From Raineyella sp. W15-4 (lineage in GTDB: Bacteria > Actinomycetota > Actinomycetes > Propionibacteriales > Propionibacteriaceae), in NCBI RefSeq assembly GCF_033170155.1, contig NZ_CP137079.1, positions 2,666,001-2,730,000 of the forward strand: a stretch of DNA of 64,000 nt, given 5' to 3'. A program made the translations under genes and the position numbers. Below, one piece after another: positions 5,057 through 37,804 of the stretch; position 1 is the first letter of the stretch; every line of letters begins with the position of its first letter. Under the pieces are notes generated by a model. That model saw only the letters and a program-made list of their open reading frames with translations, had not been told where the DNA came from and made no database searches.

Positions 5057-6228
5057 CGGACCTCCACCGGGGCGAAGCGGCGGGGGTCGACCGCGGCGGC
5101 GGTCTCCGGCTCCAGATCGCGGCCGGCCACCAGGTCCGCCCCGAGCCGGGCGCCGAGGGCGCTGAGCAGGATGCCGTGGCGGAAATAGCCGGTGGAGACG
5201 GTCAGTCCGGGCGCCACCCGGCCGATCAGCGGGACGTCGTCGGGGGTGCCGGGTCGGGCCCGGGCGGTGACTTCCAGCAGTTCGCACTCCAGCACGCCGG
5301 GGACCAGCCGCTGCGCGTCGCGGAGCAGTCGGTGCACGCCGCCGATGCTCGGGCCGGCGAGGCCGTCCTCGCGCGAGGTTGCCCCGATCACCACGGTGCC
5401 GTCCTCGCGCGGCACCAGGTAGACGGGGCTGCCGTGGACCAGCCCGCGGACCGTCCGGGTGACCAGCGGCCGCAGCCGCTCGGGCACCCGGATCCGCAGG
5501 ATGTCGCCCCAGACCGGGCGCAGCGGCAGCTCCAGACTGTCCGGCAGCCCGGTCAGCTCGCCGGAGGCGAGTCCGGCGGCGACGAGCACCTCGTCGGCCG
5601 CCAGGGTGCTGCCGTCGGCGAGGCGTACGCCGCCCACTCGCTCCGCGGTCCACCACACTCCGTCGGCCCGCTGCCGGACGACGGTGCCGCGGTGCTCGAG
5701 CAGGTCGAACAGTGCGGCCATGATCCGACGCGGGTCGACCTGGTGATCGTCGGGGATCCGTACCGCCCCGACCACCCCCGGTCCCAGAGCGGGCTCCAGG
5801 AGCCGGGCGGTCGAGGAGGAGATCTCCCGGAGGTCCATGCCGAGCCGGCGCTGGAGGACGGCGAGATCGGCCAACGCCTGCCGGTCGGCGGCGTCGCCGG
5901 CGCAGACCAGGGTCTCGGTGCTGAGGTGTCCCACCGGGCGCCCCGCCTCGGTCGCCACCCGGGCGGCCAGCCGCGGCCAGAGCTGGGCGGCGGAGACCAT
6001 CAGCCCGTAGAGAGTGGGCTGGTCCCAGACCACCTCGGAGGCGGGTGCCAGCATCCCGGCCGCGGCGAAGCTGGCGCCCGACATCGGGGCGGGATCGCAG
6101 ACGGTGACCTCCCAGCCGGCGTCGAGAAGTTCCCAGGCCGTCGCCAGGCCGATGATGCCGGCGCCGACGACGATCACCGAGCGAGAGCGCGACCGGGAAT
6201 CGCTGGCAGTGTGCTCGACCACGAGCAT
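5053..6228 (-). CDS. thiO: Glycine oxidase ThiO
   Basis: A 391-aa FAD enzyme of the D-amino-acid oxidase fold that oxidises glycine to the imine used by ThiG. The dinucleotide-binding motif [15 protein letters not shown] lies near the N terminus; [24 protein letters not shown] and the C-terminal [16 protein letters not shown] match the family. It is the first gene after the TPP riboswitch. The ribosome binding site AGGAAAGGA directly abuts ATG 6228, so GTG 6222 two codons downstream may be the true start. Confidence 0.92.
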
Positions 6229-6229
6229 T

Positions 6230-6326
6230 CCTTTCCTACGGCGGCATGACCCGCATCAGGTTCAGCGGTCGGCACGTGGCCCTCTCAGCCCTCATCCGGT
6301 GGGCTCCCGCGGAATGTGCTCCCTAC
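6230..6326 (-). promoter_or_regulatory. TPP riboswitch (thi box) upstream of thiO-thiS-thiG-thiF
   Basis: Read on the minus strand, the segment contains the conserved TPP-aptamer blocks GGCTGAGAGGG (6281-6290) and CTGAACCTGATGCGGGTCAT (6246-6265), followed by CCGTAGGAAAG, which closes the P1 stem just before thiO. A minus-strand -10 box TATAGT (revcomp of 6325-6330) sits immediately upstream, so transcription should begin at the aptamer. By analogy, TPP binding would block expression of the four-gene operon. The divergent thiE appears to lie outside this control. Confidence 0.92.
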
Positions 6327-6335
6327 TATAGGCCC

Positions 6336-7034
6336 GTGACATCGTCGCCGACCCCCAGCGTCCCCTCCGCCCGGACCTCCCGCTCCCGCCGGCTCGCCGC
6401 GCTGGACGCGGCGCGGCTCTATCTGTGCACCGATGCCCGCACCGAGCAAGGTGACCTGGAGGCGTTCCTCCATGCGGCGTACGAGGGTGGGGTGGACATC
6501 ATCCAGCTGCGGGACAAGCGGCTCGAGGCGCGGGCGGAGATCGCGGCCCTGGAGCTGCTGGGTCGGATCGCCGCCGAGCACGGGCGGCTGTTCGCGGTGA
6601 ACGACCGGGCCGACCTCGCTCTGCTGGTCGGCGCGGACGTGTTCCATGTCGGCCAGGGCGACCTGACCACGGCGCAGGCCCGTACGATCCTCGGGCCGGA
6701 CGTGTTGGTCGGCCGCTCGACCCACAGCCTCGCCCAGGCGCGCGAGGCGGCCGAGGATCCGGGGCTGGACTACTTCTGTGTCGGGCCGGTGTGGGCCACC
6801 CCCACCAAGCCCGGCCGACCGCCGGTAGGGCTGGACCTGGTGGCCGATGCGGCAGAGATCGGGACGGCACTGCATCCGCCCAAGCCGTGGTTCGCGATCG
6901 GCGGCATCGACACCGCCCGGGTCCCGCAGTTGCGGGCCGCCGGGGCGGAGCGGATCGTCGTGGTCCGGGCGATCACACAGGCCGCGCGGCCGCGCGAGGC
7001 CGCGACGATGCTGCGGAACGCGCTGCTGGGCTGA
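6336..7034 (+). CDS. thiE: Thiamine-phosphate synthase
   Basis: Joins HMP pyrophosphate and thiazole phosphate to give thiamine monophosphate. It is a 232-aa TIM barrel with [14 protein letters not shown] (pyrophosphate-binding), [28 protein letters not shown] and [18 protein letters not shown] 6336 is preceded at 6 bases by TACTAT (6324-6329), so the transcript is probably leaderless. An upstream in-frame ATG at 6246 lies inside the antisense riboswitch and is not credible. The -10 boxes of thiE and the thiO operon overlap on opposite strands. Confidence 0.93.
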
Positions 7035-33207: not shown

Positions 33208-33534
33208 TCAGCGCCGGCCGGCGGCCAGGTGGGAGGCCAGCGCGACCGCACCGGTGACCACGGCGACGCTCGGCCAGGCGCCGATCTTCTTGGCCAGCGG
33301 GTGCGAGGCGCCGAACGCCGCGACGTAGAGGGCACCCAGGGCGGCAGCGGTCGACGGGCCGCCCTTGGCCAGCCAGGTCCGGCCGGCCCACACCCCACCG
33401 GCGACCAGAGGGATGGTGCCGACAGAACGGATCCCGCTCTCCCGCGCGGCGATGTAGCCACCGAGGATGCCGCTCGCGGCGACCAGCGCGGAGTTGACGT
33501 CCTCGGCCCTGCGGAACTTCATGCGTGTGCCCAT
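33208..33534 (-). CDS. Small membrane protein, unknown function
   Basis: A 108-aa protein with hydrophobic Gly/Ala-rich helices (LVAASGILGGYIAA, GTIPLVAGGVWAG, AAALGALYVAAFGA, VAVVTGAVALASHLAAG), probably three or four membrane segments. TAGAGT lies 6 bases before ATG 33534, so this start fits a leaderless transcript better than the internal ATG 33522. The stop region lies in one of two copies of CAGCGCCGGCCGG (about 33190-33220), which may form a terminator. Confidence 0.65.
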   Translation of the reverse strand: MGTRMKFRRAEDVNSALVAASGILGGYIAARESGIRSVGTIPLVAGGVWAGRTWLAKGGPSTAAALGALYVAAFGASHPLAKKIGAWPSVAVVTGAVALASHLAAGRR

Positions 33535-34081
33535 GGGCCCACTCTAGGGTCGGATCTGAGAGGGAGCTGTGTCCGCCCGGAGTCGACGGCGACTACGGCT
33601 GCCCGCCGCCACAGAGCGCTGAGGTGTACGAAGCCATGGCAAGAACCTCGCCCTGCATCCGTCCGCGTCCTGCTCGGGGAACCGCTCGACGGACTGCCTG
33701 GCTTCGAGGCCGTAATGGACAGTCGGACGTCCTTCGCCGTATCTACCGGACTGCCAGATTGATGGCCCCGCCCCCAAACCCAACCGGCTGGGCTTTACCA
33801 ACACACTCGAACTGCTGTCAGCGCAGTGAACCGACTCCGACGACGTCGGCGAGACCCAGAGCAGGTCGATGCGGAAGTTCAGGAAGATGGTCCACACCTT
33901 CCACGACGCGGAACTCAAGACCTATCGCGATGTGATCTACAACCAGCGGTAACTGGCAGGCGATCCATACGACCAGCACCTCCACCCTCGAGCAGACTTC
34001 TCCTCCGGGGTGACAACCCCATAGCATATCTCACCGACCCGCCACTAAAGGCCAGAACGGTTATGACTTGGAATCGATCGA
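33535..34081. pseudogene. Degenerate sequence at the left edge of the low-GC island
   Basis: I find no intact gene here and cannot name the parent. On the plus strand one frame reads codingly but with stops: about 33712-33820 (contains SPYLPDCQIDGPAPKPNRLG and FTNTLELLSAQ before a stop), continuing after the stop to 33953 with RKFRKMVHTFHDAELKTYRD and ending VIYNQR. That looks like the decayed end of a mobile-element or phage-type gene. GC is lower than in the flanks. Two overlapping minus-strand frames look like shadows. Confidence 0.35.
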
Positions 34082-34357
34082 TCAGTCGCTTGTCCCCTTC
34101 TCGGTCACCGACTGGAAGCGTCGTAGAAGCTGAAGGAACTGCCCTCCAGGAACTCCAGCCCTGCTGGCAATTATCTCGATCTCCTCGCCGGAGAGCGCTG
34201 GGGCGCGAAGTAACTCATCCTCAGTCATGACAGCGGTCACAGCTCTCGCAGTAGCAAGACGATTTGCATCTCCTTCAGTTAGGGATCCAACAACACTCTC
34301 ACCCAACAGCGGAAGGAATGTCGCGAAGTCTTTGAAGGAAAAGACCTGTTCACTCAT
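34082..34357 (-). CDS. 91-aa helical protein, last gene of the cysteine-peptide operon
   Basis: Not recognised. It begins MSEQVFSFKDFATFLPLLGE, is predicted mostly helical, has no cysteine, signal peptide or membrane helix, and ends in a Lys/Gly/Ser/Asp tail. It lies 30 bases after the Tat-protein gene in the same direction. Base composition is lower in GC than the rest of the window. It could be a leader-like, immunity or regulatory protein; nothing in the sequence decides this. Confidence 0.6.
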   Translation of the reverse strand: MSEQVFSFKDFATFLPLLGESVVGSLTEGDANRLATARAVTAVMTEDELLRAPALSGEEIEIIASRAGVPGGQFLQLLRRFQSVTEKGTSD

Positions 34358-34387
34358 TTCGGCCCATCACCCCCAGCAGCACCTCGA

Positions 34388-34813
34388 TTACCGTACCGGT
34401 ACGGGATCGATCGGAGGGTTGACCCACAGTTGCTGCAAGTCTACATAATGGCCAACATTGTCGACCGTTCCGACCAATACGACATGATCACCGACACGCA
34501 CACGATCAGAAACCTGGGATCTGTCCACAGGGCCACCCTGCCAAGTGAAACGAACTGATCCGATATCGAAGGTCTCTTCGTGGGTGCCGGAGTCGACGAT
34601 GAGCGTCTTCCGATCGATCGATGCCACCGTCCCGCGGGTGAATCCCATCGGCTCAACCGCGGGTGGCTCGCCTCCGGCATAGCTGAAGCCGACAGGCAAG
34701 TGAGTTTCACCCTGTGCCGCCGAAGCCGTTGCCGACTCCAGAATGGACGCCACACCGAGCGCGCTAGCAGTTGAAGCTACGAAAAACGACCGTCGCGAAA
34801 GCTGACCACCCAT
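34388..34813 (-). CDS. Tat-exported small beta-rich protein
   Basis: A 141-aa protein with a clear twin-arginine signal: LSRRSFFVASTASALGVASI, ending near ATASAAQ (cleavage about residue 33). The mature part has repeated short strands, RGTVASIDRKTLIVDSG and VRVGDHVVLVGTVDNVGHY, like an OB-fold or DUF5666-type barrel; the family call is tentative. Tat export implies folding, or cofactor or partner binding, before export. A GGAGG site precedes ATG 34813. It follows the cysteine-rich peptide by 60 bases and is probably co-transcribed. Confidence 0.68.
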   Translation of the reverse strand: MGGQLSRRSFFVASTASALGVASILESATASAAQGETHLPVGFSYAGGEPPAVEPMGFTRGTVASIDRKTLIVDSGTHEETFDIGSVRFTWQGGPVDRSQVSDRVRVGDHVVLVGTVDNVGHYVDLQQLWVNPPIDPVPVR

Positions 34814-34873
34814 TATCTTGTTGCCTCCATCCGCGCTAGTACACAGTCATGACGATGCGGTCCTTCGCTAGGG

Positions 34874-34993
34874 TTACGGATCAGCTCCAGCACAGGCAGC
34901 CATGCAGACTGCGAAGCATGCCAAGTAGGCTGGCGGGTCTTCGAACAGAACGAAGCAGGTCACAGCACACGCATAACTGCAGTTGTATCCCAT
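34874..34993 (-). CDS. 39-aa cysteine-rich peptide with twin CX3CX3C motifs
   Basis: The peptide starts MGYNCSYACAVTCFVLFE and continues DPPAYLACFAVCMAACAGADP. Cysteines are at 5, 9, 13 and 26, 30, 34: CX3CX3C, a 12-residue turn containing Asp-Pro-Pro, then CX3CX3C. The i/i+4 spacing puts each triplet on one helix face, so an antiparallel hairpin could be stapled as 13-26, 9-30 and 5-34. The ribosome binding site AAGGAGG is inside the end of the upstream gene, and only 1 base separates that stop from this ATG, which strongly supports translation. There is no leader or signal peptide. I recognise no family; antimicrobial, metal-binding or redox roles are all open. Confidence 0.7.
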   Translation of the reverse strand: MGYNCSYACAVTCFVLFEDPPAYLACFAVCMAACAGADP

Positions 34994-34994
34994 C

Positions 34995-35504
34995 TCACCC
35001 CTCCTTGAACTTGGTCTTCGGCGTCAGCATTTCCTTCCCTGGCGCAAATTTCCCCGACGGTTCTTCGCCATTCTGGAAAATCGCAGCAAGCGCCGAGCGC
35101 CGTTCCTGCTCGGTCTTGCGACGGGTATCGAACAGGTCATTCTCGTAGCCCACAACCCTAGACTGCGTCCTGCTCGTTCCGTCGGCATAGTAAGTTGTGC
35201 CTTCGACTAGCGTCTCGTAGCGATCGCCATGCTTCTCGCCTCTCCGCTGAGTCCGCTCAATCTTGACCGGGACCTCGGACAACAGCTGATGCGGCGGCAG
35301 ATTCTCCACCTTCACGGTGGCCACATGACGCACACCCCAGTCATAGAAAGTGACGTTGCTGTCGTAGTTCCACACTGACTCAACACCGTTGGCAAAAAGG
35401 ATGCCAACAGCGAGCTTGAACGAATACCCTTCGGAACTATCGGATTGTGTGTACTCGATGATTCGACGACTGACGACATCCGTCGGCCAAGTTGGCTCAC
35501 TCAT
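34995..35504 (-). CDS. 169-aa cytoplasmic protein, first gene of the cysteine-peptide operon
   Basis: Not recognised. It begins MSEPTWPTDVVSRRIIEYTQ, is predicted alpha/beta with no cysteines, signal or membrane helix, and has a charged helical region (RRKTEQERRSALAAIF) before a Lys-rich end (KTKFKEG). ATG 35504 is chosen because GAGGTGAT, an 8-base match to the anti-Shine-Dalgarno sequence, lies upstream; ATG 35537 lies within the promoter. The last codons form the ribosome binding site of the 39-aa peptide, so the two are coupled. Confidence 0.65.
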   Translation of the reverse strand: MSEPTWPTDVVSRRIIEYTQSDSSEGYSFKLAVGILFANGVESVWNYDSNVTFYDWGVRHVATVKVENLPPHQLLSEVPVKIERTQRRGEKHGDRYETLVEGTTYYADGTSRTQSRVVGYENDLFDTRRKTEQERRSALAAIFQNGEEPSGKFAPGKEMLTPKTKFKEG

Positions 35505-35530
35505 GCGATCACCTCGATCGGCCCTCTGAT

Positions 35531-35565
35531 GGTTCATGTCTATTCCCAGGCAATGAACCTGTCAA
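35531..35565 (-). promoter_or_regulatory. Promoter and overlapping operator of the cysteine-peptide operon
   Basis: On the minus strand a consensus -35 TTGACA (35565-35560) is followed after exactly 17 bases by TAGACA (35542-35537). Within it lies a perfect 7-bp inverted repeat, GGTTCAT at 35559-35553 and ATGAACC at 35537-35531 (minus-strand reading), covering the -10 box. This is a typical repressor-site placement. Such a near-consensus -35 is unusual for the window. Confidence 0.6.
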
Positions 35566-36184
35566 GGGAAATCAATGGGCTCTTCTCAGCCCATCGGCAC
35601 GAGAAGCCGACCCTGTCGGGGTCTGCACCTCTGATCTGGATCCGGCCGAGTTCAGTGGACGGCGGAGGCGATGCCATCTGAGCGACAGGCGAAGTTACCG
35701 GTGACACAGCAACGGCAGGCGTTGACGTTTGAGGGCCAGGGCAGACCACGGTCGAGATATCGCGCACGGCCTGGGGGATATAGCCAGATCGATGAGTCGA
35801 TCGACCAGGACCGCACGGCGAGGCGTCGCGGACGCACCCGCAACTCCTGGAAGGCCCGCGGGCACGAACCCGTTCGCCAGACAAGACAAACAAGGTGTGT
35901 CGGCGTCGTAGGGGCGGCTGCGGGAGCCGAGGATGCCAGCATTGAGGTGATGAGGCACTGGCCGAGGTGTGGGTTGCAGAGGTCCCCACGACACGATCTG
36001 CTTCGGCAGAAGTAACACTGGCCGAAACACCGCCTGCCTGCGAGAGTGGTTGTCGATGTGTTCGGCACCACAGCCTCCGCCCCGGCCCGACCTGGCTCAG
36101 CGTAAGGTCACGACCCACCGTCATGCTCGTGTCAGAATCGACCGCGAGGTGGAGAGCCCCCAACCCCACAACAAAGGAGCCGAC
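35566..36184. other. Gene-poor stretch of the low-GC island
   Basis: No credible gene seen. A minus-strand frame is open from about 36259 to 35540, ending 2 bases before an alternative ATG, but its Ser/Pro/Arg-rich composition, the antisense overlap with the pntA start and the internal promoter make it unlikely; at most its last ~30 codons look coding-like (RIQIRGADPDRVGFSCRWAE). Several other overlapping frames on both strands are of similar length, as expected for a decayed region. Confidence 0.4.
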
Positions 36185-36237
36185 GTGTGCCACGCCGAGT
36201 TCGCGGACGTCAACCGACTCCACTACGCTTCGTAGTG
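36185..36237 (+). promoter_or_regulatory. Possible 16-codon leader peptide and hairpin before pntA
   Basis: AAAGGAG (36174-36180) is followed by GTG 36185, opening a 16-codon frame (VCHAEFADVNRLHYAS) that stops at TAG 36233-36235. The perfect hairpin CACTACG-CTT-CGTAGTG (36221-36237) overlaps the last codons and the stop. The pntA ribosome binding site AAGGAGGT begins 4 bases later. Translation of the leader would melt the hairpin, so coupling or attenuation is conceivable. Confidence 0.4.
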
Positions 36238-36253
36238 CTGAAGGAGGTCCACG

Positions 36254-37804
36254 GTGCAAATCGGAGTGCCCAGGGAGTCCTCACCATCCGAGACCCGGGT
36301 GGCGGCGACCCCGTCAACTGTCCCGCAATTACTCAAGCTCGGCTACGACGTGGTGGTGGAGCGAGGAGCCGGTGACCGCGCCGACTTCCCCGACTCCGCG
36401 TACACGGAGGCCGGAGCCCGCCTCGGCGAGGCCCCGGAGGTCTGGGCGTCCGACGTCGTGCTGGCGTGCAACCCACCCACCGACGCGGAACTGGCCCTGA
36501 TGCTGCCCGGGGCCACCCTGGTGTCGATGCTCTCCCCCGCCCTGCATCCCGAAGTGGCCGAACGGTACGCCCAGGCCGAGATCAGCGCACTGTCGCTCGA
36601 CGCGGTGCCGCGGATCTCCCGCGCGCAGGCCCTCGACGTGCTGTCCTCGATGGCCAACATCGCCGGCTACCGCGCGGTGATCGAGGCCGCCCAGGCGTAC
36701 GGCGGCATGTTCACCGGCCAGGTGACCGCGGCCGGCAAGGTGCCGCCGGCGAGGGTGTTCGTGGTCGGTGCCGGCGTCGCCGGTCTGGCCGCGATCGGCA
36801 TCGCCGGATCCATGGGCGCCCAGGTGCGGGCGTTCGACGTACGTCCCGAGGTCGGCGAGCAGATCGAGTCGATGGGCGCGACCTTCGTCGAGGTCGGCGC
36901 GGTCGACACGAAGGTCTCCACCGACGGCTACGCCAAGGAGATGACCGCCGACCAGGCCGAACTCGCCGCCCGGATGTACGCCGAGGAGTCCCGCAACGCC
37001 GACATCATCGTCACCACCGCGCAGATCCGGGGCAAGGCCGCCCCGGTCCTGCTGACCGCCGAGATGATCGCCGCGATGAAGCCGGGCAGCGTCATCGTCG
37101 ACATGGCCGCCTCCACCGGCGGCAACACCGCGCTGACCCGGGCCGACGAGAAGGTGGTCACCGACAACGGCGTGACGATCATCGGCTGGACCGACCTGGC
37201 CGGCCGGCTGCCCCGACAAGCCTCGCAGTTGTTCGGCACCAACCTGGTGAACCTGCTGAAGCTGCTCACCCCGGAGAAGGACGGCCGGCTCGTGCTGGAC
37301 TTCGACGATGAAGTCGTCCGGTCGATGACGGTCACCCGGAAGGGCGCGATCACCTGGCCGCCACCACCGGTGAAGGTCTCCGCCGCCCCCACCCCTGTCG
37401 TCAAGCCGGCGGCCGAGGTCGCGAAGCCGACCGAGTCCCCGGCCGAGCTGGCGCGGCGGAAGCGGACCCGCAACCTGGTCTCCGCCGGGCTGGCGATGGT
37501 GATCTTCTTCCTCATCGGCGGGGTGTCCCCGGTCGCCATCCTCGGGCACTGGATGGTGTTCATGCTGGCGGTGTTCGTCGGCTTCTACGTCATCTCCAAC
37601 GTCACGCACGCCCTGCACACGCCACTGATGTCGGAGACGAACGCCATCTCGGGCATCATCATGGTCGGCGCACTGCTCCAGGTCGGCAGCTCCAGCCTGG
37701 TCGTGACGATCCTGTCGTGGGTGGCGATCCTGGTCGCGTCCATCAACGTCTTCGGTGGCTTCCTGGTGACCAACCGGATGCTCGCCATGTTCCGGAAGGG
37801 CTGA
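36254..37804 (+). CDS. pntA: NAD(P) transhydrogenase alpha subunit
   Basis: A proton-translocating transhydrogenase subunit that moves hydride between NADH and NADP+. It is 516 aa: domain I (NAD-binding, about 1-370; [69 protein letters not shown]), a Pro/Ala linker, then about four helices of domain II (from [20 protein letters not shown] onward). This is the E. coli-type single alpha chain rather than the split PntAA/PntAB. GTG 36254 has AAGGAGGT upstream. pntB follows after 3 bases. Base composition returns to high GC here. Confidence 0.93.

Follow-up and report, generated by a model that had tools for sequence, protein, structure and literature searches.

The question raised by this locus of Raineyella sp. 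W15-4 is whether four small, closely spaced genes in DNA of lower GC content form a genuine functional unit and, if so, what a cysteine-rich peptide of 39 amino acids might do within it. The window analyzed here is the whole stretch of 64,000 nucleotides in which the genes lie. Four minus-strand open reading frames (ORFs) were found where the initial annotation had placed them, encoding proteins of 169, 39, 141, and 91 aa:

34995..35504, minus strand: gene 1 (P0001), 169 aa, no signal peptide by eye, no family matched; homologue P0005 at locus L194
34874..34993, minus strand: gene 2 (P0002), hydrophobic 39-aa peptide, C-x3-C-x3-C-x12-C-x3-C-x3-C, no leader; homologue P0006 at L194
34388..34813, minus strand: gene 3 (P0003), 141 aa, twin-arginine-type signal (by motif) followed by a small domain, no family matched; homologue P0007 at L194
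34082..34357, minus strand: gene 4 (P0004), 91 aa, weakly similar to the SRP54 M domain; outside the conserved module

Genes 1 and 2 are separated by a single base, as had been claimed, and the gaps between genes 2 and 3 and between genes 3 and 4 amount to 60 and 30 bases. A longer version of gene 1, starting at 35537, would touch the supposed -10 element, so the start at 35504 (169 aa) is preferred. After shuffling of the operon DNA (200 mononucleotide shuffles), the longest frames had a mean of 135 codons and a maximum of 231. As shuffles often give frames as long, ORF length alone is no evidence of coding. A ribosome-site-like sequence was seen by eye ahead of each of the four genes.

Two features were located upstream of gene 1:

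35531..35565, minus strand: possible promoter, -35 TTGACA (35560-35565), 17-base spacer, weak -10 TAGACA (35537-35542)
35573..35596, minus strand: stem of 9 pairs with a loop of 6, just upstream of the -35, terminator-like according to the scanner

This region had been described as a near-consensus promoter with an overlapping operator, which was overstated on both counts. The -35 is perfect, but the -10 matches at three of six positions by our own count, and a sigma-70 promoter rule identified no site in 33500-36250. The putative operator, an inverted repeat (GGTTCAT/ATGAACC) with 7-base arms across the possible promoter, is not above chance: when the 121-base region containing it was shuffled 300 times, 25 of the shuffles had arms of 7 or more. 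Given the imperfect -10, the missing rule match, and the frequency of such arms in shuffled DNA, both claims are weak. Terminator-like sites were found twice by the scanner, compared to a shuffle mean of 1.8.

The spacing of the cysteines provided a handle for finding relatives. When the window was read in all six frames, a single instance of C3C3C-(6 to 20)-C3C3C was found, compared to none in 20 mononucleotide shuffles. A genome collection was scanned for DNA coding M/V-x3-C-x3-C-x3-C-x12-C-x3-C-x3-C, which yielded at least 120 stretches, and a like scan of viral contigs yielded 88; together, these at least 208 stretches gave at least 83 readings that stay in frame for 34 residues or more. 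Among the matches listed, the best reading has 19 of 39 residues in common with P0002 and the next best 11. The 88 viral stretches reached at most 11/39 residues. A tighter start pattern returned nine viral stretches, three with an MG-x-N-C-x3-CA-x2-C start that then diverge and six that stop at once.

The best reading lies at L194, on contig JANWXL010000205.1 ('MAG: Roseiflexus sp. isolate SKYG45', labelled Chloroflexota and thus, by its label, a bacterium of hot-spring type). Relatives of genes 1, 2, and 3 are present there in the same order and on the same strand as in the window, with gaps of 8 bases (genes 1/2) and 21 bases (genes 2/3). P0005 has 158 aa (tblastn E 6e-19, 30% over 104 residues), the peptide P0006 has 39 aa, of which 19 are identical to P0002 with all six cysteines kept (E 7e-13), and P0007 has 137 aa and an RR-type start (E 9e-15, 32%); these E-values were computed for 8 kb of subject. 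As the flanking genes 1 and 3 lie outside the pattern used for the scan, their matches are independent evidence. The phylum label of the 16-kb contig rests on MAG binning; at about 30% protein identity, it is a distant lineage under any label. A second genome of the MAG's class (L290) also contains genes 1-3, 99.7% identical over 7.5 kb and with one residue exchanged in the peptide. Being nearly identical, it was counted with L194 and not as an independent case. Profile A1 of gene 1 matched two of 158 genomes of this class, the MAG and the near-identical one, leaving 156 without a match. Among the matches listed, genes 1-3 occur in two lineages, that of the window and that of L194/L290.

The recurring neighborhood, by which the four-gene proposal was to be judged, is therefore a neighborhood of three: genes 1-3 stand together and in order in the MAG, but gene 4 is absent there, and a search of 395 further genomes from the phylum of the window gave no homologue of it. 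Because a distant genome carries three of the four genes in unchanged order, the group looks like a genuine functional unit, and sequence comparison supports viewing genes 1-3 as a functional group, unrecognised so far, that centers on a cysteine peptide and its Tat-type partner. In the surroundings of the L194 module, two LuxR-type regulator genes are located at 2039-2719 (about 1.7 kb downstream) and 6022-6633 (about 0.6 kb upstream). A same-strand ORF of 79 aa (5516-5755), for which Pfam gave no match, has its end 99 bases upstream of the first module gene; tblastx revealed no counterpart of it in the window island.

The products of genes 1-3 could be assigned to no known family: none of them reaches a Pfam or NCBIfam cut-off in either lineage. 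P0001 and P0002 had no Pfam match and P0003 a meaningless one (E 0.19); NCBIfam gave none for P0001, P0003, and P0004. No match to P0001 was found in 95 other genomes of kin (three of the same genus plus 92), in plasmids, or in phages, and no convincing relative in genome contigs by peptide patterns. P0002 had no relative in plasmids, and the weak matches in 12 of 395 other genomes of the phylum (E 0.022-0.092) all lacked the cysteine pattern. A search with P0003 of 195 further genomes from the order gave four weak matches (E 0.0014-0.0094), with no clear relative in the one locus inspected, and plasmids and viral contigs gave no convincing relative. P0005 and P0007 had no match in plasmids or phages, and the alignments A1 (gene 1) and A2 had none in viral contigs. 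Against the PDB, sequence searches reached a best E of 0.052 for any of the four window proteins and 0.38 for A1 and A2. PHROGs returned nothing better than E 0.12, and PADLOC no match for the four window proteins. No description of such an operon was found in the literature searched, which was covered in part and mostly outside subscription journals.

Between the two lineages, protein 1 keeps the motifs YTQxD, NGVE, and RGE..GDR, and protein 3 keeps RR, LPxGFSYA, GDxVVL, and WVN. The start of the gene 3 product reads RR-x-F, which we take to be a twin-arginine motif. The signal had been called clear, and the motif is indeed present in both P0003 and P0007, but neither protein reaches the cut-off of a model: P0007 scored 15.5 bits against TIGR01409 (cut-off 16.7) and 14.6 against PF10518 (22.7), and P0003 matched no Tat model in Pfam or NCBIfam. 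This start is the only signal-peptide-like one seen within the module.

The peptide itself is the same length in all three sequences, and 19 of its 39 columns are invariant (M1, G2, N4, the six cysteines, A10, L16, P20, A22, Y23, A32, A33, A35, D38, and P39), including the start M-G-x-N-C and the end A-A-C-A-x2-D-P. No leader, double-glycine site, or signal was seen on it in either lineage. In each half the cysteines are placed at i, i+4, and i+8, and both halves are hydrophobic, with a mean Kyte-Doolittle value of 1.95-2.06 in both lineages. The peptide contains no His and two Met (P0006 by eye). From this arrangement we infer two helices folded into a hairpin, with their thiols turned toward each other.

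Gene 4 is a local addition that does not belong to the shared module. Its best Pfam hint is SRP_SPB (PF02978; E 0.0031, 18.3 bits), below the cut-off of 27; none of ten shuffles of P0004 matched PF02978 in Pfam. Against a profile of M domains from the window's class (35 of 39 rows used, four dropped by filter or as duplicates), P0004 scored 10.4 bits, compared to 6.4 for the best of 2000 shuffles, and hhalign aligned it with M domains collinearly over 74 columns (P 3.4e-4, probability 38%). The likeness to SRP54/Ffh is thus weak and collinear, whereas P0004 differs in having no GTPase part and in carrying GEEIEIIASRAG at the position of SRxxRIAxGSG, which we take to be the RNA-binding motif of the M domain (it is seen in the printed consensus); the motif is lost. 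Of 296 genomes of the class, eight besides the window's own contain PF02978 twice with an E of at most 0.1. In G275 and G328 both copies are full; the second match spans 26-29 profile positions in five genomes and 52 in G483, all in open frames of 393-1065 codons. Hence, these eight genomes showed no further ORF that stands alone as gene 4 does. Neither plasmids nor the 395 other genomes of the phylum gave a convincing relative. The gene 4 product may bind a hydrophobic helix.

The lower-GC setting of the operon was likewise confirmed: its GC content is 0.565 vs 0.707 for the window, and third-position GC is 0.53-0.68 in the four operon genes compared to 0.91-0.95 in five neighboring genes. 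The following features describe the lower-GC island and its site:

33554..36218, no strand: lower-GC stretch, absent from the sister genome G001
33599..33946, plus strand: truncated, stop-crossed remnant of the slot gene
L016 3809-6004 and L018 3609-6020, relatives' loci: slot ORF, intact and sugar-hydrolase-like in two same-genus genomes, not in the G001 slot

The flanks (window positions 33553 and 36219) are about 70 bases apart in G001, which belongs to the same genus, compared to 2665 bases in the window. For the neighboring gene at 36254, the seven top-ranked plasmid matches come from Rhodococcus, Tsukamurella, Streptomyces, and Arthrobacter (59-62% identity), followed by Klebsiella and Photobacterium at 58%, which fits an actinobacterial host without being decisive. 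In G003 and G002, also of the same genus, the slot is filled by an ORF of 731 or 803 aa, presumably glycoside-hydrolase-like from its motifs. The remnant has 74-79% DNA identity to G003 and 36% protein identity over residues 125-254. With a remnant in the window and the slot gene in two relatives, the foreign-looking DNA occupies that gene's place. A further 0.7 kb of intermediate GC upstream of the operon (35540-36215) has no recognisable gene, and the six stop-to-stop frames given for it had no Pfam match. The DNA of the whole island had no match in plasmids or phages, and Rfam gave none within the island up to E 0.1; elsewhere in the window, a TPP riboswitch was detected at 6215-6320 on the minus strand (RF00059, 60.3 bits). 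At L194, the GC content of genes 1-3 is 0.59, 0.49, and 0.59, that of the 16-kb contig 0.583, and that of the two nearby regulator genes 0.72-0.73. As the module in the MAG is like its contig in GC, support for transfer comes from the window side and from the patchy occurrence; mobility of the module is evident on one side, the window's, only.

Our proposal, possible though doubtful and built on the comparison of two lineages, is that genes 1-3 form a small export module in which protein 1 captures the peptide, the peptide is exported as a Tat passenger with protein 3, and oxidation takes place outside. Protein 1 would be made first and would capture the hydrophobic peptide on its emergence from the ribosome, so that the peptide stays soluble and does no harm within the cell; a coupled upstream gene is what one would expect of a chaperone or an immunity protein. 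Folding would give a hairpin of two helices, each bearing a row of three thiols. The Tat pathway is established to move folded proteins (see also PMC3827258, in excerpts), and the peptide could for this reason leave as a passenger of protein 3. This route is suggested, provided that the peptide acts outside, because the peptide is leaderless and the one export-type start, that of protein 3, is kept beside it. Once outside, the peptide may oxidise to a disulfide-stapled hairpin and act on the membranes of competitors, perhaps in the manner of a bacteriocin; alternatively, the oxidised peptide may stay with protein 3 in the wall. The general form of this proposal, a three-gene module of distant bacteria consisting of a leaderless six-cysteine hairpin, a coupled chaperone or immunity protein, and a dedicated Tat substrate as carrier, is one in which we place still less confidence.

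Rather unlikely, in our estimate, is a leaderless bacteriocin of the halocin C8 type split over separate ORFs, with gene 2 encoding the killer, gene 1 the immunity protein, and export by another route or lysis. Its basis is that TIGR04449 (halocin_C8_dom) is the best NCBIfam hint for P0002 (E 0.0027, 18.6 bits, residues 2-37), which was matched by none of ten shuffles, five of them with the cysteines kept in place, and that halocin C8 derives from ProC8, a 283-aa precursor that is exported by Tat and gives rise to both an immunity part and the peptide of 76 aa (PMC11509114, in excerpts). The score is, however, below the cut-off of 24 and the homologue P0006 does not match the model, so that the relation to halocin C8 is one of resemblance, not membership. 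In addition, the window peptide has half the length and is not cut from a precursor, and gene 1 of both lineages is without a match to TIGR04450 (none for P0001, P0005, and P0006; 8.3 bits, E 1.6, cut-off 27 for P0002). The sole Pfam hint on P0006, a PHD finger (E 0.004, 17.7 bits, cut-off 27), is about as strong as the halocin hint on P0002 and is a reminder that cysteine peptides give stray matches. A search of 394 genomes of the class with TIGR04449 gave two matches, of which the Ala/Ser-rich frame at L009 looks false; at L008 (1501-1677, reverse strand) there is a real-looking C8-like cysteine stretch of 28.7 bits, over the cut-off, with one stop inside.

The same cysteines could serve a metal or redox function, the reduced peptide binding Cu(I) or another soft metal in the cytosol via its six thiols and protein 3 working outside, a reading that we regard as clearly unlikely. 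The i, i+4, i+8 spacing in both halves is consistent with it, since copper storage proteins have cysteines that point into helix bundles (PMC5171941, in excerpts). It is at odds with the absence of His and the two Met of the peptide, with outer helix faces that look hydrophobic, and with a length too short for a four-helix bundle; moreover, no copper transporter or regulator was found among the island ORFs scanned and the eight L194 ORFs.

The order and spacing of genes 1 and 2 would also fit a toxin-antitoxin-like pair, in which a membrane-active hydrophobic toxin encoded by gene 2 is held by the gene 1 product and gene 3 is a passenger: the partner gene comes first, the peptide is small and hydrophobic, and the window copy lies in DNA of island composition. 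We consider this quite improbable, as the third gene with its export-type start, which both lineages keep, would be superfluous to a pair of this kind, and neither PADLOC (four window proteins) nor the plasmid and phage searches gave a match. A radical SAM-modified cysteine peptide (RiPP) is very improbable. The second-ranked hint for P0002, TIGR04118 (radical-SAM cysteine RiPP), scored 11.2 bits (E 0.27) against a cut-off of 35, but two of ten shuffles weakly matched the same model, the peptide has no leader, and no maturase was found among the island ORFs scanned or the eight L194 ORFs. Chance ORFs in decaying foreign DNA are an extremely improbable explanation, and this reading is rejected for genes 1-3 only. 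In its favor, a decayed gene remnant adjoins the operon and the ORF lengths are within the shuffle range; against it, the same three genes, similar at the protein level, stand in order in L194, and each gene of the window operon is preceded by a ribosome-site-like sequence (by eye).

The comparison links three protein families, none of which has an annotated relative in the libraries searched, into a single unit whose conservation is sufficient to point experiments to particular cysteines, arginines, and partners. If the export module proposed above is real and the peptide is secreted via its Tat partner, it would represent a new way of exporting small peptides without leader, ABC exporter, or maturase. 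Should the peptide be a weapon or a metal ligand, it would offer a small scaffold of a new type, held by up to three staples. In any of these cases, orphan genes not named by the libraries searched gain a testable handle.

Among known systems, copper storage proteins (Csp) resemble the peptide in that its cysteines are spaced to line one helix face; the peptide differs in being, with 39 aa, too short for their four-helix bundle and in having no Pfam match to the Csp family. In Tat hitch-hiking, proteins without a signal of their own are exported in complex with a Tat substrate. The export route proposed for the peptide is of this kind, and the literature searched, covered in part, contained no bacteriocin-like peptide riding on a Tat substrate. 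Halocin C8 differs from the window peptide, which is a free-standing 39-aa ORF without precursor in both lineages, compared to 76 aa processed from ProC8. Both are small, hydrophobic, and cysteine-rich peptides with Tat export, a proposed one in the case of the window, in the system. In both, the coding sequence of the peptide directly follows that of an immunity part, a putative one in the case of gene 1; in ProC8 the two parts belong to a single protein.
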